From Gimesia algae (GTDB lineage Bacteria > Planctomycetota > Planctomycetia > Planctomycetales > Planctomycetaceae), in the NCBI RefSeq assembly GCF_007746795.1, contig NZ_CP036343.1:3151369-3215368 (forward strand): a stretch of 64,000 nucleotides of DNA, read 5' to 3'. Every line of letters begins with the position of its first letter. Positions within the stretch are counted from its first letter, which is position 1. Of the stretch, positions 54,343-64,000 are shown piece after piece. A program made the translations under genes and the position numbers. Under the pieces are notes generated by a model, which was not told where the DNA came from, searched no databases, and worked only from the letters and a program-made list of their open reading frames with translations.

Positions 54343-55206
54343 TCAGGCCTGTAGTTCGACACCAATCTGATAGATTTCTTCTGTATCCAGCAGCATGTCG
54401 TTGGTTTCAAACAGCTTTTGGATGGCGGCTTTATGGATTTTCATTTTGGTTCCGCCAACGCCGATAGCACCGTAACAGAGGATTCCGTCCCGGTCGGTCG
54501 CTTTATCCATCACATCCACTTCCTCGATACCAGCGGGGGGAACCGCATTGAGGTCGATGACCACTTTGAGCTGTTTCATCGGTTTCCAGCAGGCGGCTGG
54601 GAGCAGCTTGACTCCGGCTGCACCGGCGGAAATGATCAGGTTTGTAGACTTGTTGGCCTCTTCAATCTGTTTGTGATCTTTGAGTGCCAGCGGTGTGAGT
54701 TGTGCGTTTTCGACAATCCGGTCAATCGCATCGCAGGCCGCCTGTGCCCGTTCGATTGAGCGAGAAGCGAGAATGACTTTCGCACCCCGTTTTGCCAGTA
54801 GTTGTGCGGCACGTTGACCAACGGGACCGGTGCCACCGAGCACCAGAGCAGTCGTCTCGGAAAAATCGAGATGTTTTCCCGCTGCAAGAACGGCAGCAGC
54901 CGCGGTAGTGTTGGAGCCGTTCGAATCCATCATGACAGAGACCCGCATGGGACCGAAGAATGTGTTTTGAATTTTCTGAAACAGAGTTTCGCCGGAATGC
55001 ACTTCACTGCCACCGACAAAGAGCGCCGTATTGTTCAGCTCTTTTGGCCCCCGGGTAAACATCGCGCCATGCACAAGTGGCTCCACGTTAACGGGAGTCA
55101 CGTCACTATAGCTCATTAACTCATCTACGCCGGCATCAATGGCGACGACGCGATCAAACGAGCTGGCGTGCGTATCGGTATCTAGTTGAATCAGTATTTT
55201 TTTCAT
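54343..55206 (-). CDS. NAD(P)-dependent methylene-tetrahydromethanopterin dehydrogenase (MtdA/MtdB/MtdC family)
   Basis: A 287-residue cytoplasmic enzyme oxidising methylene-H4MPT to methenyl-H4MPT. It starts KKILIQLDTDTHASSFDRV, has the pterin-site region LFVGGSEV, SVMMDSNGSNTTAAAAV, then a Rossmann motif LVLGGTGPVGQRAAQLLAKRG with ILASRS, which suggests NADP preference but does not settle it. The C-terminal part reads CYGAIGVGGTKMKIHKAAI. It follows fae by 105 bases with a strong hairpin between them. Which subfamily (MtdB or MtdC) cannot be settled by eye. Confidence 0.92.
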   Translation of the reverse strand: MKKILIQLDTDTHASSFDRVVAIDAGVDELMSYSDVTPVNVEPLVHGAMFTRGPKELNNTALFVGGSEVHSGETLFQKIQNTFFGPMRVSVMMDSNGSNTTAAAAVLAAGKHLDFSETTALVLGGTGPVGQRAAQLLAKRGAKVILASRSIERAQAACDAIDRIVENAQLTPLALKDHKQIEEANKSTNLIISAGAAGVKLLPAACWKPMKQLKVVIDLNAVPPAGIEEVDVMDKATDRDGILCYGAIGVGGTKMKIHKAAIQKLFETNDMLLDTEEIYQIGVELQA

Positions 55207-55251
55207 GAGAGATCTCGATTACTAAATCAAATAAGAAACGATCCAAACGAA

Positions 55252-55280
55252 ATACCCCTGCTCCAGAAGAACAGGGGTAT
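55252..55280 (-). terminator. Intercistronic hairpin between fae and the methylene-H4MPT dehydrogenase gene
   Basis: ATACCCCTG (55252-55260) pairs perfectly with CAGGGGTAT (55272-55280), a 9-bp stem with an 11-base loop, located 31 bases after the fae stop on the minus strand and followed there by TTTCGTTT. It could be a partial terminator or a 3'-stabilising structure that sets fae expression higher than the downstream gene. Confidence 0.6.
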
Positions 55281-55311
55281 GTATTCGATTCCACCATCGC
55301 TACTGTCTGGA

Positions 55312-55809
55312 TCAGCCAGCGTAGAAGGGGTGAGTTGCTTCACTCTTCTTGGCGATCATTTCATCAACAGAAGGCTCGTTTTTCATCGCACGGGCAATGG
55401 CTTCTTTGGTTGCTTCGTAGTTGTAATCGAAGATTTTCTTATCATCGTCCGCTTCCCAGTGGATGAAGACACCACAGACAATAACGAGGTCTTCGCATTG
55501 ATCTTTAGGAATCACGCCGGCTTCAACACTGTCTGCGACTGCTTTCGCGACGGCGTATTGAGCGGGGCCAAACATCTGCACGGCCTGCTTTGCACCTTTG
55601 ATGGTGACTTTAGTGACCATCACGGTGGCTGGCTTGACTGCGAGGTTTGGTGATAAGACAGCCAGCAGATTACTATGACCCATTCTCTGGCTGGACAGAG
55701 CGTTTGCAAAAGCTGTACCGACAGGACCAGTTTTGTCACCGATCAACAAATCGATATGAGCAACTTCATTACCATCACCCACAAGTGACTCACCGACAAA
55801 CATTGACAT
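55312..55809 (-). CDS. fae: Formaldehyde-activating enzyme Fae
   Basis: Fae condenses formaldehyde with tetrahydromethanopterin to methylene-H4MPT in the cytoplasm. The family block GESLVGDGNEVAHIDLLIG includes the catalytic His. Other blocks are NLLAVLSPNLAVKP and AQYAVAKAVADSVEAGVIP. ATG 55809 is chosen because GGAG lies 8 bases upstream and gives 165 residues, the normal length; the frame is open to 55839. It is first in the minus-strand H4MPT group. Confidence 0.96.
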   Translation of the reverse strand: MSMFVGESLVGDGNEVAHIDLLIGDKTGPVGTAFANALSSQRMGHSNLLAVLSPNLAVKPATVMVTKVTIKGAKQAVQMFGPAQYAVAKAVADSVEAGVIPKDQCEDLVIVCGVFIHWEADDDKKIFDYNYEATKEAIARAMKNEPSVDEMIAKKSEATHPFYAG

Positions 55810-56034
55810 TCTTCGTTCTCCATTTCTTATCAGGTTCACATAGTTATGCTGTTAGCACAATTAAAAACGGATCACGAATACCGCAGTCCTGAAGGGACGG
55901 AGAAACAAACTATTCCAGCCTGGTTCACCTTGGATCATTCGTAGCCTGTAACAAGTAATAACAATTTAAGAAGCGGATTGCCAGTAAACCGCTGGTAATC
56001 ACTCTAAATCCTCATAAAATTGTCATGGCACTCC

Positions 56035-56080: not shown

Positions 56081-57403
56081 GTGAATTTTCCTGGACCCTC
56101 TTCCTTACTGATCGTCGGCGGCAGCACGCGTGCTGCCGCCTGTTCTGCAGTACGTGCCGGCTTTCAGCCCGTCTGTGCGGATCAGTTTGCTGACCGGGAT
56201 CTACGCGCCATATCTGAGGTTGTCTTCAAAATAGACGATCATGATCACTGGTTGGAAGAGATCATGAAACAGGAGCCACAAGACTGGATCTACACTGGCG
56301 CACTGGAAAACCGGCCGGAACTGATCAACTCGATCAATCAACGTCATACACTGCTGGGAAATGCCGGGAAATCTTTAAAAAAAGTGCGTGATCCTTTTTT
56401 TCTGCAGGGTCTGCTTGCAAATCAATCTATTCCATTTGCGACCAGCCTGCCCCACCAGTCGAATACTCCCCTGCAGGGACGATGGCTGCGCAAGCCGCTC
56501 CTGAGTGCCGGCGGCCAGGGAATCGGTTTCGTCGATTCACACACTGCTGCCCCAGCCGATGCTACGCAATATTATCTACAGCAGTATCAACCTGGAATCC
56601 CACTGTCCGCGTTGTTTATCGCGTTTCCTGACTGTTGTGTGCTGGTCGGTACTGCAGTCCAATTTATTGGAAACCGGGTATTGCATGCTAACGGTTTTCA
56701 GTTTTGTGGCGGAATGATATTATCACCCGTGCCGCCTGAGTGGCGACAAACTCTGGAAAAACTGGGACAAAGTGTCGCGAGTGGATGCTCTCTCAGAGGT
56801 CTGTTTGGCTGCGATCTGATCTGGAATCCGGACCAGCAACCGGGATTATGTCTCACCGAAGTCAATCCCCGTTACACTGCGTTGACCGAACTTTTTGAGC
56901 TGCAATTTCGACTGCCTCTACTGCGGTGGCAGCATGCCGCCTGTCATTCCTGCGATGCATCATCAACTGTAGCCAAATCCTCAGCCGAAGAGCTGATTCA
57001 GTTACTCAAAGTCTGCGAGAAACAGCAATTATCACCTGTTTCGAAGGGAATCTTGTATGCGCCGACGGATCTGACAGCCCCGGATCTGGCCTTTAAACCA
57101 TCTATCGAACAGGCACTCTGGCAGATCCCTGCTTTAGCTGATGTTCCTGACCGGAGAGCCAGAATTCCGGCTGGCACTCCTGTGTGCACCCTGTATGGGA
57201 CCGGCACCGACCAGGAGGAATGCCTGACTTCGCTGGCAGATCAAATTCTCAGTTACCAGCGGCAGATTCAGCCAGAGGGGGCGCGCGATCTGAGCAGGCA
57301 GGAAGCCTCTAACATGCTCTGGCCTGGAAAGGAATCGGAAAAACTGTTTTTTTCGGGTTTTTTCTCAAGCGAGAATGTATCTGGTTCGTTTCTTGAAGAT
57401 TGA
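56081..57403 (+). CDS. ATP-grasp domain protein, probably H4MPT-cofactor related
   Basis: A 440-residue cytoplasmic protein with a GTG start. Residues ~1-100 form a pre-ATP-grasp Rossmann-like domain (SLLIVGGSTRAAACSAVRAG). The ATP-grasp core shows GRWLRKPLLSAGGQGIGFV, YYLQQYQPGIPLSALF, GLFGCDLIWN and CLTEVNPRYTAL, the last holding the metal-binding Glu and Asn. ATP-grasp ligases occur in H4MPT gene clusters of methylotrophs and are thought to act in cofactor synthesis. Divergent from fae, which supports that role; the substrate is unknown. Confidence 0.83.
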   Translation: MNFPGPSSLLIVGGSTRAAACSAVRAGFQPVCADQFADRDLRAISEVVFKIDDHDHWLEEIMKQEPQDWIYTGALENRPELINSINQRHTLLGNAGKSLKKVRDPFFLQGLLANQSIPFATSLPHQSNTPLQGRWLRKPLLSAGGQGIGFVDSHTAAPADATQYYLQQYQPGIPLSALFIAFPDCCVLVGTAVQFIGNRVLHANGFQFCGGMILSPVPPEWRQTLEKLGQSVASGCSLRGLFGCDLIWNPDQQPGLCLTEVNPRYTALTELFELQFRLPLLRWQHAACHSCDASSTVAKSSAEELIQLLKVCEKQQLSPVSKGILYAPTDLTAPDLAFKPSIEQALWQIPALADVPDRRARIPAGTPVCTLYGTGTDQEECLTSLADQILSYQRQIQPEGARDLSRQEASNMLWPGKESEKLFFSGFFSSENVSGSFLED

Positions 57404-57515
57404 ACTGAATGGTTATAAAATCGAGTTTAGAACTTGTGTTCTACAGGACGACATATAATTCACAGATGAACTTTTCGTCAGATCTCCAGTAACATGAAGG
57501 AATAATTTCAGACCG

Positions 57516-58868
57516 ATGCCCAAGTCAACAGATATCAAAATCGTTGAGGCAAAATTTTCAACTGAAGAAGTCCCTTTCCGGACCCCGCTCAAATTTGGTG
57601 GTCGGGTGATGGACAGCAGCGTTCTGTTGAATGTGGAAGTCATCGTTGAAACACGTAATGGAAAACAGGGTATCGGGATCGGCAGCATGCCGGCGGGAAA
57701 TATCTGGGCCTGGCCATCCGCAATCGTCAGTCCGGAAGATTCGCTGAAAGCAATGATCAATTTTCTGGAAGAAGCGGTCGAGATCGCCAATATCTGTCCG
57801 GAAGTTGCGCACCCGATCGATTTGATGTATCACATCTCTGCTGAATACCATTTCATGGCGAAGAAGCTTTCCAAGCGACTCGGCCTGGCAGAAGAAATTC
57901 CGGAACTGGCACAACTGGTCGCCTCCAGTCCGCTGGACGCGGCAATTCATGATGGCTTTGGGCGCGCCAACCATATCAACAGCTACAATGGTCTATCTTC
58001 TGAATACATGATCCATGATCTGAGCGAATACCTGGATGATCAATTTAAAGGTGAGTACCTGGATCAATACACGCTACGTGATCCCAAGCCGACACTGCCG
58101 CTGTATCACCTGGTAGGCGCACTGGACCCGATCACCGAAGCCGACATTACAGAACGAGTCGATGACGGCCTGCCTGAGACACTGGGTGAGTGGATCAAAG
58201 CTGACGGCCTGACGCACCTGAAGATCAAACTTTCCGGTGACAATATGGACTGGGATATCAGCCGCGTGATTGCCGTCGAGAATGAAGCCGTCAAAGCACA
58301 GGGTGAGCGTGGACATGATACGTGGGTCTACTCTCTTGATTTCAATGAGAAATGTGAGAACGTGGATTACGTCCTGGAATTTCTCAACAAAATCCGTGAG
58401 CAGACACCGGCTGCCTTTGATCGTGTGCAATACATCGAACAGCCTACTAATCGCGATCTGAAGGCCAACCCCGAAAACAAAATGCACGAAGCAGCCAAGA
58501 TTAAACCCGTAGTGATTGATGAATCGCTGGTGGATTATGAATCGCTGCTGCTGAGCCGTGATCTGGGTTACTCAGGTGTGGCATTGAAAGCCTGTAAAGG
58601 CCAGACAGAATCGCTGTTCCTGGGTGCTGCCGCCCAGAAGTTTGACATGTTCCTCTGCGTACAGGACCTGACCTGCTGCGGTTATTCGTTCCTGCATTCT
58701 GCCAGCCTGGCTGCACGAATTCCTTCTATCGCTGCGATTGAAGGCAATGGCCGCCAGTACTGTCCCGGACCGAATAAAAAGTGGAAACGCTCTTATCCGG
58801 GTATGTTCAATATCACCGATGGTACAGTGAAGACGGCTGAACTGAACGGTGATGGCCTGGGTTTCTGA
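57516..58868 (+). CDS. Enolase-superfamily protein, mandelate racemase/muconate lactonizing type
   Basis: A 450-residue protein. It has the capping domain with VPFRTPLKFGGRVM and GSMPAGNIWAWP, then the barrel with a KxK-type motif (THLKIKLSGDN, near residue 232) and metal-ligand positions in YSLDFNEK, YIEQPTNRDL and VVIDESLVDYES. Enolase-superfamily members abstract a proton next to a carboxylate; the substrate is not predictable. It follows the ATP-grasp gene by 112 bases and converges on the M50 protease gene. Confidence 0.88.
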   Translation: MPKSTDIKIVEAKFSTEEVPFRTPLKFGGRVMDSSVLLNVEVIVETRNGKQGIGIGSMPAGNIWAWPSAIVSPEDSLKAMINFLEEAVEIANICPEVAHPIDLMYHISAEYHFMAKKLSKRLGLAEEIPELAQLVASSPLDAAIHDGFGRANHINSYNGLSSEYMIHDLSEYLDDQFKGEYLDQYTLRDPKPTLPLYHLVGALDPITEADITERVDDGLPETLGEWIKADGLTHLKIKLSGDNMDWDISRVIAVENEAVKAQGERGHDTWVYSLDFNEKCENVDYVLEFLNKIREQTPAAFDRVQYIEQPTNRDLKANPENKMHEAAKIKPVVIDESLVDYESLLLSRDLGYSGVALKACKGQTESLFLGAAAQKFDMFLCVQDLTCCGYSFLHSASLAARIPSIAAIEGNGRQYCPGPNKKWKRSYPGMFNITDGTVKTAELNGDGLGF

Positions 58869-58897
58869 GCCTGCTGACAGCCACTCTCACAATATTT

Positions 58898-59593
58898 TTA
58901 CCAGATATTGTTGCGCTGCTGGTACGCCTGGAAGTTGAAGAACGCGAACAGCGCGAACATGATTCCTGCATAGCGCTGCTGGTGCATAAAGAAATAAGCA
59001 GCCAGACCGCCGGCAACGACCATCGAGATCTGCATTGCCAGTACATCGCCGCGTGAACGTCTGACGGTTTTACAGATATCTTCGCAGATATGACCGCCAT
59101 CCAGTGGCAGCACGGGAGCGAGATTGATTAATCCCCAGATCAAATTAATAAACAGCAGATCATGAAAGGCTGCACCAATATAAATTCGGGCCTGTTCACT
59201 GAAACCGTCCCACATTCCATAGCGAACTGAGATATATCTGAAGAAAAATATTGCTCCATACAGCCCGAATCCAGCCATGGGTCCTGCTGCCGAGATAATG
59301 ATGGAACGTTGTGTTGTCAGACCTGAATAGGGCTGGTAGATCGCCAGTCCTCCAAAGTGATACAGCACAATTTCCGGAGGCCAGCCAAAATATTTGGCCA
59401 TGACAGCATGCCCCAGTTCATGCACGAGGATCGAGATAAAGACGCAGGCGATCCAGATGAACGTGATTTTCAGATCATTTGGATACCAGCCCATGAACGC
59501 TGCCATCACCCAGAACAGAGGATGAACGCGGATCGGGATTCCAAATAAGGAAAAACGCAAATCGAATTCGGTGGGAGCGACATTTCCCAGCAT
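58898..59593 (-). CDS. Site-2 protease family (M50) membrane metalloprotease
   Basis: A 231-residue polytopic protein. The zinc site is HELGHAVMAKYFG in one helix and the third ligand is in PVLPLDGGHI. Extra hydrophobic helices flank these. No PDZ or CBS domain, so it is one of the minimal M50 proteases that cut within membranes, for example releasing regulators or processing anti-sigma factors; the nearby anti-sigma factor is a possible but unproven substrate. It is divergent from the retron. Confidence 0.92.
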   Translation of the reverse strand: MLGNVAPTEFDLRFSLFGIPIRVHPLFWVMAAFMGWYPNDLKITFIWIACVFISILVHELGHAVMAKYFGWPPEIVLYHFGGLAIYQPYSGLTTQRSIIISAAGPMAGFGLYGAIFFFRYISVRYGMWDGFSEQARIYIGAAFHDLLFINLIWGLINLAPVLPLDGGHICEDICKTVRRSRGDVLAMQISMVVAGGLAAYFFMHQQRYAGIMFALFAFFNFQAYQQRNNIW

Positions 59594-59865
59594 CAGCTCA
59601 ACTTTCTGTTTGTATATCTATCTTTATCAGGCGTGCAGCATGCTCGTTTTACCTGGACTGAGACAGCTTATCTGATAATGCATGGGAATGCACTCCTGTG
59701 AAAGATCCTAAATTGATCGCACTGTAGCCGGGTCTGCGAATCGAAGCAATTGCAGTTCCGAATGTGGGATTCAGAGCTGTATACTGTCCGCTGGAACCAC
59801 TCCGTTTACAAAACTTTTATCCTGATGGAAAATAGAGGCATTGGTCAGATTCACAAGACTTAACA

Positions 59866-59893
59866 TTGACGCATCTCACGAAAAGGCTACGAT
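59866..59893 (+). promoter_or_regulatory. Sigma-70-like promoter of the retron ncRNA
   Basis: TTGACG (59866-59871), a 16-base spacer, and TACGAT (59888-59893) match the -35/-10 consensus at 5 of 6 and 4 of 6 positions. The predicted transcription start is about 59899-59900, only four to five bases before the a1 arm of the retron stem. This fit of promoter to RNA start supports both calls. Confidence 0.65.
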
Positions 59894-59903
59894 TTGCAGA
59901 CAT

Positions 59904-59924
59904 AATGGGCAGTGGGTCGCACAA
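59904..59924 (+). repeat. Retron a1 inverted-repeat arm
   Basis: Left arm of the stem that closes the retron RNA. It pairs with 60065-60085 over 20 base pairs with one G-G mismatch (59909 with 60080) and two G-U pairs (59913 with 60076, 59917 with 60072). A pairing of this length across 140 bases is very unlikely by chance. Confidence 0.85.
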
Positions 59925-60003
59925 GTTCTGACTCTGACTGAATCTTGACTGATCACTCAGAGTTCTGCGGGGATACCCCGCGGGAGAAGGATTGACCATG
60001 CAT

Positions 60004-60064
60004 CGACACTTGAAGTGTCGCTACGATAGACGCTTATCGTAGCAACACTTCGTCACAGGATCGG
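60004..60064 (+). other. Predicted msd template region of the retron
   Basis: If reverse transcription primes from G59925, it starts opposite about 60064, just inside a2, and proceeds leftwards through this region, giving a msDNA of about 60-75 bases. The region folds as one long hairpin (60012-60051), or alternatively as two small hairpins: CGACACT/AGTGTCG (60004-60020) and GCTACGATA/TATCGTAGC (60020-60043). The 3' end of the DNA cannot be set from sequence. Confidence 0.65.
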
Positions 60065-60085
60065 TTGTGCGGCCCGCTGGCCATT
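60065..60085 (+). repeat. Retron a2 inverted-repeat arm
   Basis: Right arm, complementary to a1 at 59904-59924, overlapping a run of seven T at 60084-60090. The strong stem followed by T-run may also end most ncRNA transcripts before the RT gene, leaving RT expression to read-through. Confidence 0.85.
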
Positions 60086-60143
60086 TTTTTAGGCATCACT
60101 ATTATTGCCTTATATTGAAACGGAATGACTGCAGGTTTTCTCA

Positions 60144-61418
60144 ATGGGTTTATTTGATTTCTTACGACGGATCTTTTTCGGTTCTCCACCGAGCCAGTCT
60201 GTCTCGCCAGTAGAGTCGACTCCCGTCCCGGAAGAGACCAGTCCCCGCAAACCCCGATGCAAAGCCAAACTGGAACCATTACGCTACACCAGCGTTCATT
60301 CGGACCGGGTCGAGAATATCGAAGAAGTGGCAGCGCCCCCCTACGAGTTGGCACGCTATGGAGCGAGGACCGGTCATTATTTCGATATGACCAAAGATGG
60401 CGATGCTCAGAAACTGGCTCGTTACGAACTGCCGCAGTTCTCTACGCCAATGGAACTTGCTGAGTGGCTGCAGATCCCAGTGGGGAAACTGGCCTGGCTG
60501 ACCCACCGCTTCACACAATTCGACCGTCCTGATGAAGCACAGGAATCGCATTACATTTATCACTGGAAGCCAAAACGGTCCGGATTTCGCCTGATCGAAT
60601 CGCCGCGCCCGTTCTTGAAAATGGCACAGCAGCAGATCCTGCAGGAGATCTTAAATCAGGTTCCTCTGCACACAGCCGCGCATGGATTCGTAAGAGGCCG
60701 CTCTTCTGTGACGAATGCGGCACCACACACGGGCAAACGTGTGGTTGTCAAATTTGACCTGGAGAATTTTTATACCAGCGTCAAATTTTCCCGCGTCGTT
60801 GCCATCTTTCGCAACCTGGGCTACTGCCGTGAAGCATCACTTTATCTGGCGCGGTTAACGACCTCCGTGATCCCCATGAGTCTACCTTTTCCGGATGGCA
60901 GCCTGCGCCCTTTGCTTCCTTATCTGTCACGGCATCTGCCTCAAGGCGCAGCCACCTCTCCAGCGCTGGCGAACCTGTCGGCCTATTCGCTGGACGTTCG
61001 GCTCTCCGGTCTGGCGCGCGCCTTCGATGCTGACTACACACGCTATGCAGATGACCTGACCTTTTCGGGATCAGAACCGTTTCTGCGATCACTGCAAGTC
61101 TTTCTGCCTCTGGTCAATCAGATCATCCGCTCAGAACGGTTTCAGGTGAACCACATGAAACGCCGCGTGCTGCGAGATAATCAGCAGCAGAAAGTGACCG
61201 GCGTCGTTGTGAACGAACATCCCAATGTGCCACGCAAAGAATTTGATCTGCTGAAAGCGATTCTCACAAATTGCATTCGCCAGGGTCCGGGAACTCAGAA
61301 TCGCGAGAATCATCCCGATTTTGCCAGCCATCTGCGCGGGCGTGTGGCATATGTGCAGCAACTCAACCCGAACCGTGGGCAACGTTTACTGCAACTGTAT
61401 GAACAGATTCGCTGGTAA
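60144..61418 (+). CDS. Retron-type reverse transcriptase
   Basis: A 424-residue RNA-directed DNA polymerase. Motifs in order: HGFVRGRS at 180-187, the retron region-X motif NAAPH (NAxxH) at 191-195, FDLENFY at 204-210 (first catalytic Asp), LPQGAATSP at 265-273, YADD at 301-304 and region-Y VTG at 351-353. NAxxH plus VTG are diagnostic of retron RTs and set it apart from group II intron or DGR enzymes. The first ~125 residues are an N-terminal extension beginning with an amphipathic MGLFDFLRRIFFG helix and a Pro/Ser-rich linker. No maturase or nuclease domain. The msr-msd RNA lies just upstream; a terminator follows. Confidence 0.96.
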   Translation: MGLFDFLRRIFFGSPPSQSVSPVESTPVPEETSPRKPRCKAKLEPLRYTSVHSDRVENIEEVAAPPYELARYGARTGHYFDMTKDGDAQKLARYELPQFSTPMELAEWLQIPVGKLAWLTHRFTQFDRPDEAQESHYIYHWKPKRSGFRLIESPRPFLKMAQQQILQEILNQVPLHTAAHGFVRGRSSVTNAAPHTGKRVVVKFDLENFYTSVKFSRVVAIFRNLGYCREASLYLARLTTSVIPMSLPFPDGSLRPLLPYLSRHLPQGAATSPALANLSAYSLDVRLSGLARAFDADYTRYADDLTFSGSEPFLRSLQVFLPLVNQIIRSERFQVNHMKRRVLRDNQQQKVTGVVVNEHPNVPRKEFDLLKAILTNCIRQGPGTQNRENHPDFASHLRGRVAYVQQLNPNRGQRLLQLYEQIRW

Positions 61419-61424
61419 ATGGTT

Positions 61425-61459
61425 TGCTCCAGATTTACCTTGTCTCACTGGAGCATTTT
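61425..61459 (+). terminator. Rho-independent terminator after the retron RT
   Basis: TGCTCCAG (61425-61432) pairs with CTGGAGCA (61448-61455), an 8-bp stem with a 15-base loop followed by TTTT, 6 bases after the RT stop codon. It suggests that the retron transcript ends here and does not include the downstream membrane-protein gene. Confidence 0.7.
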
Positions 61460-61519
61460 AAGGCATAATAAGTAAACGATTTACGCTTAAGACCCGAATT
61501 TCCCGCGGTCTTTTTAATC

Positions 61520-61552
61520 CCTGACAGAACCACCTGCGTTTACACTGTCAGG
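61520..61552 (+). promoter_or_regulatory. Hairpin covering the ribosome-binding site of the downstream membrane-protein gene
   Basis: CCTGACAG (61520-61527) pairs with CTGTCAGG (61545-61552). The right arm contains most of the AGGAG ribosome-binding site (61550-61554) that precedes the GTG start at 61563 by 8 bases. Folding would block translation, so this looks like a translational switch or a brake on expression. Confidence 0.55.
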
Positions 61553-61562
61553 AGATAAACTC

Positions 61563-62354
61563 GTGCCAATACCCTTCGATCAGTTAGGAACCGTTGTGGG
61601 TGGATTTTTTCGCATCCTGTTTGCCAACCCCTATTTCAGAAACCTGTTAAAACCTTTAACACGTTTCTTTATCGGTCTGATTGCCATCCCGGTCTTCCAC
61701 CTGATTCTCAATAAAGTAGTGCGGGTTCAGGAAATCGACGAGGAACTGGAAAAGGATTTAGAGCAATGGTTTCGTGGATCCCTGTTGCTGCTGGCTGCGA
61801 CTGCGAACATGGAGGCTGCGCTGTTTGGCTGGGTCCCGATGAGCCTGCAGGGAACCGAAGGCTGGATCCTGATGGGCTTTCGGATCATGCTGGCGATCGG
61901 TGTAATCGAAGCCATGCCCGACCAGGAACTGTTTTCGATCATTCATCCCGGTCCTCCCCAATTAAAACTGTCTAAAGAATATGGAATCTGGCGCGAGTTA
62001 AAAGAAAAATGGCGTACCATTTTGAAAGGAGTGATCTGCCAGCATATAAACCGTTCCTCCCCGGTCTTTGCGATTCTGTCCGCGATCGCCATCGATACAG
62101 TGGGTTGGGTCTGTTATGGCATGGCAATTACGCAATATCTGATTATCGGCCTGGTGACGTCGCGTGATCGCGCGCTGGACGTGCTGAGTGAATTTGATCG
62201 GAAGGTCACCATGCGGCGGCGCGAACTGATCGAAGAATTTGATCTGGACCAGGAAGAGGTTGAAGAAGCAGATCGAAAGCGATGCGAAGAGATCGAGCAG
62301 GAGCAGACGGAGTCGAAAAAAAAACAGGCCGACGCCTCGAAAGCATCGGTCTGA
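61563..62354 (+). CDS. Four-helix membrane protein of unknown function
   Basis: A 263-residue protein with a GTG start and AGGAG 8 bases upstream. Hydrophobic helices lie at about 33-52, 72-92, 100-118 and 166-200; the last ~65 residues are cytoplasmic-looking, coiled and very charged (Glu/Lys/Gln-rich). No signal peptide. I do not recognise the family. It lies 144 bases after the retron RT, beyond a terminator, and converges on topA with only 14 bases between stops. Some retrons use membrane proteins as effectors, so a link is possible, but co-transcription is not supported. Confidence 0.8.
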   Translation: MPIPFDQLGTVVGGFFRILFANPYFRNLLKPLTRFFIGLIAIPVFHLILNKVVRVQEIDEELEKDLEQWFRGSLLLLAATANMEAALFGWVPMSLQGTEGWILMGFRIMLAIGVIEAMPDQELFSIIHPGPPQLKLSKEYGIWRELKEKWRTILKGVICQHINRSSPVFAILSAIAIDTVGWVCYGMAITQYLIIGLVTSRDRALDVLSEFDRKVTMRRRELIEEFDLDQEEVEEADRKRCEEIEQEQTESKKKQADASKASV

Positions 62355-62368
62355 TTTGAATTGTGCTG

Positions 62369-64000
62369 TTATTCTTCTGATTCTTCTTTCTTAGCAGCTT
62401 TTTTCTTTGTTGTTTTTTTCGCTGCTTTCTTTTTGGTAGTCTTCTTTTTTGCTGCCGCTTTTTTAGTTGTCTTTTTCGCGGCTGCTTTTTTGGTGGTTTT
62501 CTTGGCTGCTGTTTTCTTTTTGGCTGCCTTCTTTGCGCCTTTTTTCTCCGCTTTCGCGTCCAGCCACTCAATGGCCTGATCCAGCGTGACGTTATCCACT
62601 TCGTATCCCTTGGGAATTGTCGCGTTAATTTTGCCGTGCTTCACGTACGGTCCGTAGCGACCATCAAAGATGCCGATCGGTTCTTCGTCCTCAGGATGTT
62701 TGCCCAGATCACGAATCGGAGTCGGGGCACTGCGTTTACGCGCCTGTTTGAGCAGTTCGACTGCGCGAGGCAGGTCGATGGTCAGGATGTCGTCTTCCTT
62801 ACCCAGCGACTTATAAACTTTATCATGCAGCACATAAGGACCGAAACGACCGATGCCCGCGTTGACCTTTTTACCGGTCTCCGGATGTTCGCCTAACGGA
62901 CGAGGCAGGCTCAGATATTTCAAAGCAGTTTCAAAGTCAATCGTATCGGGGTCGACAGTTTTCGGAATACTGACGCGCTTCGGCTTCGGGCCATCTTCGA
63001 CTACATCTCCCAACTGCAGATAAGGGCCAAACGGTCCATGCAGTTTATAAATGGGGGTGTTTTCCTCGGGATGCATGCCGAGTGATTTCGGGCCTTCGGC
63101 TTTCTGCCGGATTAATTTTTCAGCCAGTTCGTTGGTCAGATCCGCGGGAGCAATATTATCGGGAATGGAAGCTGAAACCGGTTCTTCATCTGCTTCATTC
63201 GAAACATAAGGTCCATAGCGACCAACGCGGACAGCCGAGGTGATGCCTTCCAGATCCAGCGTGCAGATTTCCCGCGCATCGATGGTCTCTTCCTTGGCTT
63301 TGACCTGTTCGTCGAGCCCCGCTTCCCCGCGATAAAACTGGTTCAGATAAGGCAGACGGTCCCCTTCACCGACGGCGATGTCATCGAGTTCCTGTTCCAT
63401 GGCAGCGGTGAACTGCAGATCGACCAGGTTCGGGAAAAACTTCTCCAGTAGACGCGTGACTGCCAGCGCGGTAAACGTAGGAACCAGCTGGCTGCCTGAT
63501 TTTTTGACGTAGCCGCGATCCTGGATTGTCCCGATGATCGATGCATACGTACTCGGACGGCCGACGCCTTCACTTTCCATTTTACGCACGATGGTCGCTT
63601 CCGTGTAGCGCGCGGGTGGTTTGGTTTCGTGCTTGAGTGGTTCCACTTCACTGGCTTCCAGAGCCTGATTTTCTTCCAGCGGAGGCAACACGGATTCGCT
63701 GTCATCCAATGCTGCTTCAGGATCATCCGAGCCTTCCACATAAGCACGGAAGAAACCGGGAAATTCAACATGACGACCGGTGGCTCGGAATTCGGCGTTG
63801 TCGGCTGTGATAGTAACGGTCTGGAATCGCAGACGGGCCTCTTCCATCTGGGTAGCCATCGTCCGCTTCCAGATCATGGCATATAGTTTTCCCTGTTGTC
63901 CTTTGAGGCCGATTTCCTCCACCGTTTTCATCGACTTTCCGGCGGGTCTGATCGCTTCGTGTGCTTCCTGCGCCCCTTTGGACTTGGTATCAAAACGGCG
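62369..64000 (-). CDS. topA: DNA topoisomerase I (TopA), 5' part outside window
   Basis: C-terminal ~543 residues of a type IA topoisomerase that relaxes negative supercoils. The frame is open to base 64000 and begins RRFDTKSKGAQEAHEAIRP, a conserved TopA block; the ATG at 63931 is internal. Further blocks are GRPSTYASIIGTIQDRGYV and several C-terminal repeats with GRYGPYV or FGPYL (about five), which in this group replace the zinc fingers of the E. coli enzyme. The last ~60 residues are an almost pure Lys/Ala/Thr tail, histone H1-like, before an acidic end; such tails aid DNA binding and processivity in other TopA enzymes. Confidence 0.96.
   Translation of the reverse strand, partial: RRFDTKSKGAQEAHEAIRPAGKSMKTVEEIGLKGQQGKLYAMIWKRTMATQMEEARLRFQTVTITADNAEFRATGRHVEFPGFFRAYVEGSDDPEAALDDSESVLPPLEENQALEASEVEPLKHETKPPARYTEATIVRKMESEGVGRPSTYASIIGTIQDRGYVKKSGSQLVPTFTALAVTRLLEKFFPNLVDLQFTAAMEQELDDIAVGEGDRLPYLNQFYRGEAGLDEQVKAKEETIDAREICTLDLEGITSAVRVGRYGPYVSNEADEEPVSASIPDNIAPADLTNELAEKLIRQKAEGPKSLGMHPEENTPIYKLHGPFGPYLQLGDVVEDGPKPKRVSIPKTVDPDTIDFETALKYLSLPRPLGEHPETGKKVNAGIGRFGPYVLHDKVYKSLGKEDDILTIDLPRAVELLKQARKRSAPTPIRDLGKHPEDEEPIGIFDGRYGPYVKHGKINATIPKGYEVDNVTLDQAIEWLDAKAEKKGAKKAAKKKTAAKKTTKKAAAKKTTKKAAAKKKTTKKKAAKKTTKKKAAKKEESEE

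Follow-up and report, generated by a model that had tools for sequence, protein, structure and literature searches.

Can a retron be a standing part of a chromosome? To our knowledge, most retrons are sporadic and are read as phage-defence cassettes. The locus considered here lies in the window, a stretch of 64,000 nucleotides of Gimesia algae DNA, in which an earlier note had described a complete and functional planctomycete retron readable from promoter to terminator. Positions 59866-61418, which comprise a promoter, a structured RNA of about 180 nt and a 424-residue reverse transcriptase (RT), are indeed a retron by sequence and structure, and the terminator after the RT gene is the weakest item of the description. 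Unlike most retrons, this pair of RNA and RT has, on comparative sequence evidence, been passed on by descent through much of its family, and no toxin gene was found beside it. The best overall explanation, which we regard as highly probable, is a retron kept in the chromosome as a stable gene.

The features of the unit, in the numbering of the window, are as follows.

59866-59893, forward strand: sigma-70-type promoter TTGACG-N16-TACGAT, from a promoter scan and family-wide enrichment
59904-59924, forward strand: a1 arm of the end stem, 20 pairs with 60065-60085
59925, forward strand: putative branch guanosine, the first base after a1; an invariant column, candidate site of the linkage
59931-59963, forward strand: msr hairpin 1, 12 pairs, with wobble of the RNA type
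59964-59984, forward strand: msr hairpin 2, 9 pairs, core GGGGnTACCCC
60012-60051, forward strand: msd hairpin, 17 pairs with a C.A mismatch that a DNA copy would show as G.T
60055-60060, forward strand: conserved ACAGGA element immediately before a2, candidate site at which reverse transcription starts
60065-60085, forward strand: a2 arm of the end stem, pairing with a1
60084-60090, forward strand: run of seven Ts, putative RNA terminator together with the a1/a2 stem; its first two Ts lie inside a2
60144-61418, forward strand: retron reverse transcriptase, 424 residues; the model shows an amphipathic helix at its N terminus (residues 3-12)
61426-61454, forward strand: weak terminator-like repeat after the RT gene (7 bp, 61426-61432 with 61448-61454, 15-nt loop), followed by ATTTT

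The RT carries the three motifs that had been read from its translation, NAxxH (NAAPH, residues 191-195), YADD (301-304) and VTG (351-353). The N, A and H of the first are invariant in 50/50 alignment rows, YADD occurs in 97/97 orthologs and VTG in 78/97, with VAG, IAG, ICG, VCG or ITG in the other 19. The top PADLOC profiles are RT_other (PDLC02949, 434 bits), RT_outgroup (PDLC03740, 410 bits) and RT_XIII (PDLC02956, 348 bits), the first two being catch-all groups, judging by their names. Three NCBIfam retron models match, every one below its cut-off, and RVT_1 is the sole Pfam domain. In a phmmer search of PDB sequences the best match is the RT of retron Ec86 (E 2e-25); twelve of the 14 matches are named as retron, and the remaining two, 9kjx and 9n69, named only as RNA-directed DNA polymerase, are retron entries too according to the Foldseek listing. 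An AlphaFold model calculated from an alignment of 50 rows has a mean pLDDT of 90, and the best 18 Foldseek matches of this model are all retron entries, with group II intron RTs next. Ahead of the RT domain the model places the amphipathic helix, followed by some 50 residues of loose linker.

Upstream of the gene, folding gives the 20 pairs of the a1/a2 stem, msr hairpin 1 and the 17 pairs of the msd hairpin where they had been placed before. The second msr hairpin exists as well, and the 59967-59981 given for it earlier is the inner part of a hairpin that extends over 59964-59984. The whole RNA folds with a z of -9.1, 40 kcal/mol below the shuffled mean, and none of 200 shuffles is as stable. 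The promoter-like pair described in the note is found at its place; the window's match is weak taken alone, since the scan finds 6 such sites in 2 kb where shuffled sequence yields 1.5. Across the family, a pair with at least 9/12 bases lies upstream of 74/100 RNA copies, the window's included, against a shuffle mean of 6.3. The seven Ts also recur: TTTT occurs at most 16 nt past the end of the model in 58/100 copies (random positions: mean 4.4, maximum 11). What had been taken for the terminator of the RT gene is the 7-bp repeat followed by ATTTT; it is the weakest item because the terminator scan, which admits loops of up to 8 nt, did not list this repeat with its 15-nt loop.

Does this RNA exist as a conserved entity? 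The covariance search that had been proposed as a check answers this question. A model built from 38 relatives, none of them from the window's genus, finds the RNA of the window at 59908-60081 (127 bits, E 2e-28). Double changes occur in 20/31 pairs, in 161 cells against 43 in shuffles (0/500 shuffles as high), and when the partner columns are slid by 1-3 positions the pairing falls from 95% to 41-45%. The compensatory changes predicted for the a1/a2 and msd stems are seen in both: the former is 96.1% paired, with double changes in 11/16 pairs, and the latter has them in 7/7. The helix of msr hairpin 2 is 100% paired, and its GGGGnTACCCC core is found in 90/101 RNA copies; an ACAGGA-like element, by a loose pattern, is found in 96/101. 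In the region 57000-64000 no Rfam family reaches gathering level, and two sub-threshold matches lie elsewhere in that range. The RNA was found in all 100 selected loci, that is, at 97 RT genes and at three separate RNA genes of the genus g15, and its distance to the RT gene spans 27 to 466 nt (median 63, 97 copies). In these 100 loci the model also gives fourteen weaker matches on the complementary strand, each at the place of a forward match, as expected of a near-palindrome.

In retrons, the priming G stands at the inner end of a1, usually within AGC. The corresponding column here is invariant in 38/38 rows of the covariance-model alignment, and a1 is followed by AAG in 100/101 copies, the exception being GAG. 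The next base is C in 57, A in 29 and T in 14 of the 101 copies; the context in the window is AAGT, so the C of AGC is not present. A branch at G59925 and an msDNA of 60-75 bases, as proposed before, are a reasonable prediction from this arrangement. Retrons are described, in the available text of PMC6868368, as having one to three msr hairpins and one long, often mismatched msd hairpin, and the window's RNA has two msr hairpins and a single msd hairpin with a mismatch. Covariance, compensatory changes, the sequence and model of the RT and the near-universal AAG together support the retron identity. By these defining features at the level of sequence the kind of element is a known one; the search for a linked effector lends no support to the tripartite defence type.

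How, then, is this element distributed, and how did it get there? The RNA model matches in 108/170 genomes of the family and in 43/58 genera. Strong matches (E 1.3e-9 or better) are found in 106/170 genomes and 41 genera, a count from which G015 and G044, whose weak matches sit at a sister RT, are excluded; the 64/170 genomes with no strong match include some incomplete assemblies. Within the window's genus (g1) the match is strong in 17/17 genomes, and a phylum-wide sample of 392 genomes yields 30 RNA matches, 26 in the family and 4 elsewhere (E 1.6e-5 or better). Orthologous RTs occur in 106 genomes of 42 genera. The source genome holds a single RT match at E 0.001, and the nearest named RT records come from Gimesia MAGs (92% and 76% RT identity).

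An RT tree was computed from 97 orthologs and 5 outgroup rows, covering 39 genera, of which 24 have a single row. All 15 genera with at least two rows form single clades, though the support for g57 is only 21, and the 38 genus changes on the tree are the minimum possible, a value reached by 0/200 shuffles. RT tree distances track those of the core gene TM263, with r 0.63 over 33 genera represented by one genome each (maximum of 2000 permutations 0.38). The two genes share a locus in 42/83 genomes compared, and for the 16 genera in which they sit in separate loci r is 0.67. Deep branches are not resolved, since only 8/30 between-genus splits are common to the two trees. The dN/dS of the RT lies between 0.025 and 0.093 in 12 close pairs, values that do not favour a pseudogene. 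These comparisons show that the retron unit, as far as gene trees and substitution rates tell, has been inherited mainly vertically in the family and kept under purifying selection. Mainly horizontal spread is not favoured, with genera forming single clades and distances following TM263. One genome of the window's genus (G027) has an RT frame that is shifted near its start (L015, near 1501-1630), while the RNA upstream still matches the model with 128.6 bits.

The genus g15 offers a natural experiment on the unity of the pair. RNA gene and RT lie on different contigs in 3/3 genomes (G050, G051 and G052; loci L119, L120 and L121 with L043, L040 and L051). The RNA gene is flanked by the same two genes in 3/3 and has its own promoter-like pair (8, 9 and 9 of 12 bases) and a T-run, while TM263 still stands beside the RT. 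No RNA match is seen at the RT loci of this genus, even at E 1, and a sensitive search returns the separate RNA as the sole copy in each genome. Both sites are well inside their contigs in two of the genomes; in G051 the RNA lies 0.9 kb from a contig end. Four further genomes (G042, G058, G070 and G102) also have RNA and RT on different contigs, but these splits prove nothing, because their RT is at a contig end. In g15 the RNA is therefore a separate gene, unlike any leader of the RT mRNA.

Is the msd used as RNA or as DNA? A transition in a Watson-Crick pair leads with equal chance to an RNA G.U or an RNA C.A. G.U should persist in a stem that works as RNA, and C.A in one that works as the complementary DNA, since C.A becomes G.T in DNA. 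In a first count, which relied on a folding that forbids G.U and on hairpins distinct within a genus, the a1/a2 and msr stems hold 177 G.U against 31 C.A (a1/a2: 117 and 25; each of the two msr hairpins: 30 and 3), and the msd holds 4 against 41. By genus, G.U is ahead in 28 and C.A in 2 for a1/a2, in 14 and 1 and in 9 and 2 for the msr hairpins, the last of these not being significant (p 0.065), and in 0 and 19 for the msd. A second, alignment-based count over the whole msd stem gives 45 G.U and 48 C.A and thus no polarity. Of these G.U, 37/45 fall at the base of the stem (positions 1-3), where the conserved U.G of GUGAA/UUCGC accounts for most, and in the interior 8 G.U stand against 45 C.A, with C.A ahead in 19 genera and G.U in one. 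This second count supports the first and is not independent proof of it, since the base was excluded after the result had been seen. That the msd keeps C.A while the RNA stems keep G.U suggests that selection acts on the msd as DNA.

The msd stems are 14-21 pairs long (median 17), and 86/99 are interrupted by a mismatch or bulge. One position of the msd holds a C.A in 14/15 sequences from the window's genus and a G.A in L009, while nearby pairs have both bases replaced, as a comparison of L007 with L013 shows. The source genome has no second copy of its msd at up to 3 mismatches. A further locus (L081:3936-4397, genome G060) carries two tandem RNA copies ahead of one RT, with like scaffolds and unlike msd hairpins. 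These copies are identical at 116/143 bases, and as their differences are confined to the msd hairpin and the sequence just before it, the msd seems to be a part that can be exchanged while the scaffold around it stays conserved.

Sister RTs of about 40-49% identity are found in other planctomycete families, in genomes of the same family, and in MAGs labelled as Proteobacteria (L035) and Deltaproteobacteria (L036). The RNA model matches at 25/30 distinct sister loci tried, with E between 1e-10 and 0.01, in all 25 upstream of the RT and on the same strand. These RTs differ from the present ones in a much weaker RNA match and, mostly, in another N-terminal region. At 22 sister loci the msd shows 1 G.U and 2 C.A in 365 pairs and a1/a2 22 and 3 in 354; the msd wobbles are too few for a polarity, yet G.U is far rarer than in a1/a2. 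As a side observation, the loci L035, L036, L186 and L181-L183 point to an apparently widespread class of retron RNA that has no Rfam family.

Tripartite anti-phage retron systems, of which types I-XIII are distinguished, link an effector gene or domain to the RT. Such a link was not found here: when neighbouring genes were clustered over 106 genomes, none proved a constant companion of the RT, and PADLOC finds in the ten neighbours of the window a single, marginal match (E 4e-4, in a topoisomerase-like gene). A role in phage defence, which the earlier note had mentioned as common among retrons, thus has no local support. The commonest neighbour is TM263 (window 61563-62354), downstream of the RT in 46/106 genomes and 19 genera. 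Its product, which has no Pfam, PADLOC or NCBIfam match, is conserved and looks membrane-like by eye. As an effector TM263 is rejected, being a core gene that is present in 147/170 family genomes, also in genera that do not have this RT, and often unlinked. Upstream, 37 genomes from 16 genera have an M50 protease gene on the opposite strand, and with TM263 on the other flank this suggests an old site. Of the remaining real clusters mutL is seen in the most genera, being near the RT in 12/106 genomes and 11 genera; it directly follows the RT in two loci (L018 and L024, within 173 nt) and follows TM263 at 130 nt or less in eight, and one such neighbour was verified by Pfam. An enolase-like gene comes next (17 genomes, 5 genera). 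Other frequent clusters of short proteins are reading frames that overlap TM263, M50 or mutL (38/40, 21/22, 14/15, 33/34, 9/9, 5/5 and 4/4). These neighbour counts are lower bounds, because flanks are short in many loci and only 64/109 hold at least 2.5 kb downstream. Elsewhere in the window, at 54343-55839, are genes with an aspect of C1 metabolism, which we take to resemble methylene-tetrahydromethanopterin dehydrogenase and formaldehyde-activating enzyme.

What might the element do? It could be an anti-phage retron of the ordinary kind, with the gene of its toxic effector elsewhere in the genome and the effector held inactive by the msDNA-RT particle until a phage attacks. In the available text of PMC12548924 retrons typically consist of RT, RNA and a toxic effector, and since in g15 even the RNA is encoded in trans, a partner in trans is possible. 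The neighbourhood, with neither a gene alongside the RT in all 106 genomes nor more than that one marginal PADLOC match, speaks against it, as does a pattern of descent unlike that of portable defence genes; we consider this account possible, if somewhat unlikely. A different proposal starts from the msd itself. MutS binds G.T mismatches, and a mismatched msDNA hairpin may accordingly serve as a decoy or regulator that binds MutS or another DNA-binding protein. The frequent mismatches and bulges, the C.A that is fixed in the genus but for one G.A and that would be a G.T in msDNA, and the mutL neighbours fit this, and overexpressed mismatched msDNA raises mutation about 40-fold in E. coli (PMC6868368, available text). 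However, 13/99 msd hairpins are free of mismatches, and the same source has known retron msd stems generally containing mismatched or wobble pairs, so that a mismatch is not special. mutL may, moreover, simply belong to the old gene order around TM263, and binding of this msDNA by MutS is putative. Taken together, a decoy or regulator of repair appears rather unlikely.

The N terminus of the RT raises the idea that the RT is itself the effector, with its amphipathic helix placing the particle on the membrane. A start of MGLF, MGLL, MGFF, MGLI or MGLW is found in 65/97 orthologs, although starts were chosen partly for such letters, and the median hydrophobic moment is 0.42 in 94 proteins against 0.28 for internal 12-mers. 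The modelled helix is short, however, and the model confidence there is about 72; membrane placement is a putative reading of sequence and model, and we judge it improbable. Finally, the RNA could be a structured leader with a regulatory role in the RT mRNA, one that is never copied into DNA. Its position, a median of 63 nt upstream of the RT, and its T-run end in 58/100 copies would suit a leader; its separation from the RT in three genomes, the DNA-like polarity of the msd and an RT of retron type make this very improbable indeed. In our reading of the locus as a stably held retron, the earlier suggestion that it is functional draws its support from comparison only: from the purifying selection on the unit, its retention in vertical descent and the polarity of the msd wobbles.

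How does this retron compare with known systems? It resembles Ec86/Eco1, Ec67/Eco2, Ec78/Eco7, Ec83 and Eco8 in RT fold and motifs, and resembles such solved retrons in having an a1/a2 stem, msr hairpins, one msd hairpin and an RNA upstream of the RT. Those five have effector genes or fused effector domains, in part according to PDB titles; the planctomycete unit differs in that no linked effector was found and in its apparent inheritance by descent in much of the family. The nearest precedent is Mx162/Sa163 of myxobacteria, for which Rice and Lampson (1995) is said to be the source study. Both are common in a clade and are judged to go back to vertical descent, but the msDNA of Mx162/Sa163 has 162 bases and that of the planctomycete element a predicted 60-75 or so. 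For the myxobacterial element msDNA was found in 27/28 strains and judged vertically inherited (PMC6868368, available text).

The portions available of PMC8867640, PMC6868368, PMC12548924, PMC8934634, PMC9252829, PMC11624263 and PMC5541045 do not describe the present retron family. Within these portions, the single mention of planctomycetes in PMC8867640 is a reference, PMC8934634 treats two other RTs of Gimesia maris, which it calls transposon-borne, and PMC5541045 concerns CRISPR RTs. An earlier listing of this RT in Mestre 2020 or Khan 2024 is likely. The wobble polarity and the natural split of RNA and RT were not encountered in the literature searched, which is no proof of absence elsewhere. 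If the polarity holds true of retrons with proven msDNA, it would provide a genome-only way to spot RNA segments that are used as DNA.

Very probably, the RT and the RNA together give rise to a tiny DNA hairpin, copied from a segment of the RNA. A short RNA would be transcribed from its own promoter and probably end at the T-run after a2. Pairing of a1 with a2 would bring G59925 next to the msd; by analogy with the retron family, the RT would then bind the msr hairpins, prime on the 2'-OH of this guanosine and copy the msd into a single-stranded DNA hairpin, some 60-75 nt long and linked to the msr RNA. The resulting particle of RT and msDNA would most likely act together with the product of another locus or with a DNA-binding protein of the host. 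As to its role, a weaker claim than that of identity, the unit would most probably serve the cell as a standing function or act as a guard whose partner is unlinked; a portable defence cassette is the less likely reading, since such a cassette would be patchier and carry its effector. Going further, we tentatively propose a standing cellular retron, present throughout the genus and in much of the family, with no linked toxin and with an RNA that can be in trans, whose msd would be kept in shape (in the genus, a fixed G.T) though not in sequence because a DNA-handling protein of the host, possibly from the mismatch repair system, binds it. This full proposal falls short of probable, and the mutL neighbours are a lead for its last part, not more.

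What does the cell gain from msDNA? This question dates from the discovery of msDNA. A retron that appears to be inherited by descent, with no effector linked to it, lets one ask about the use of msDNA apart from a local toxin.
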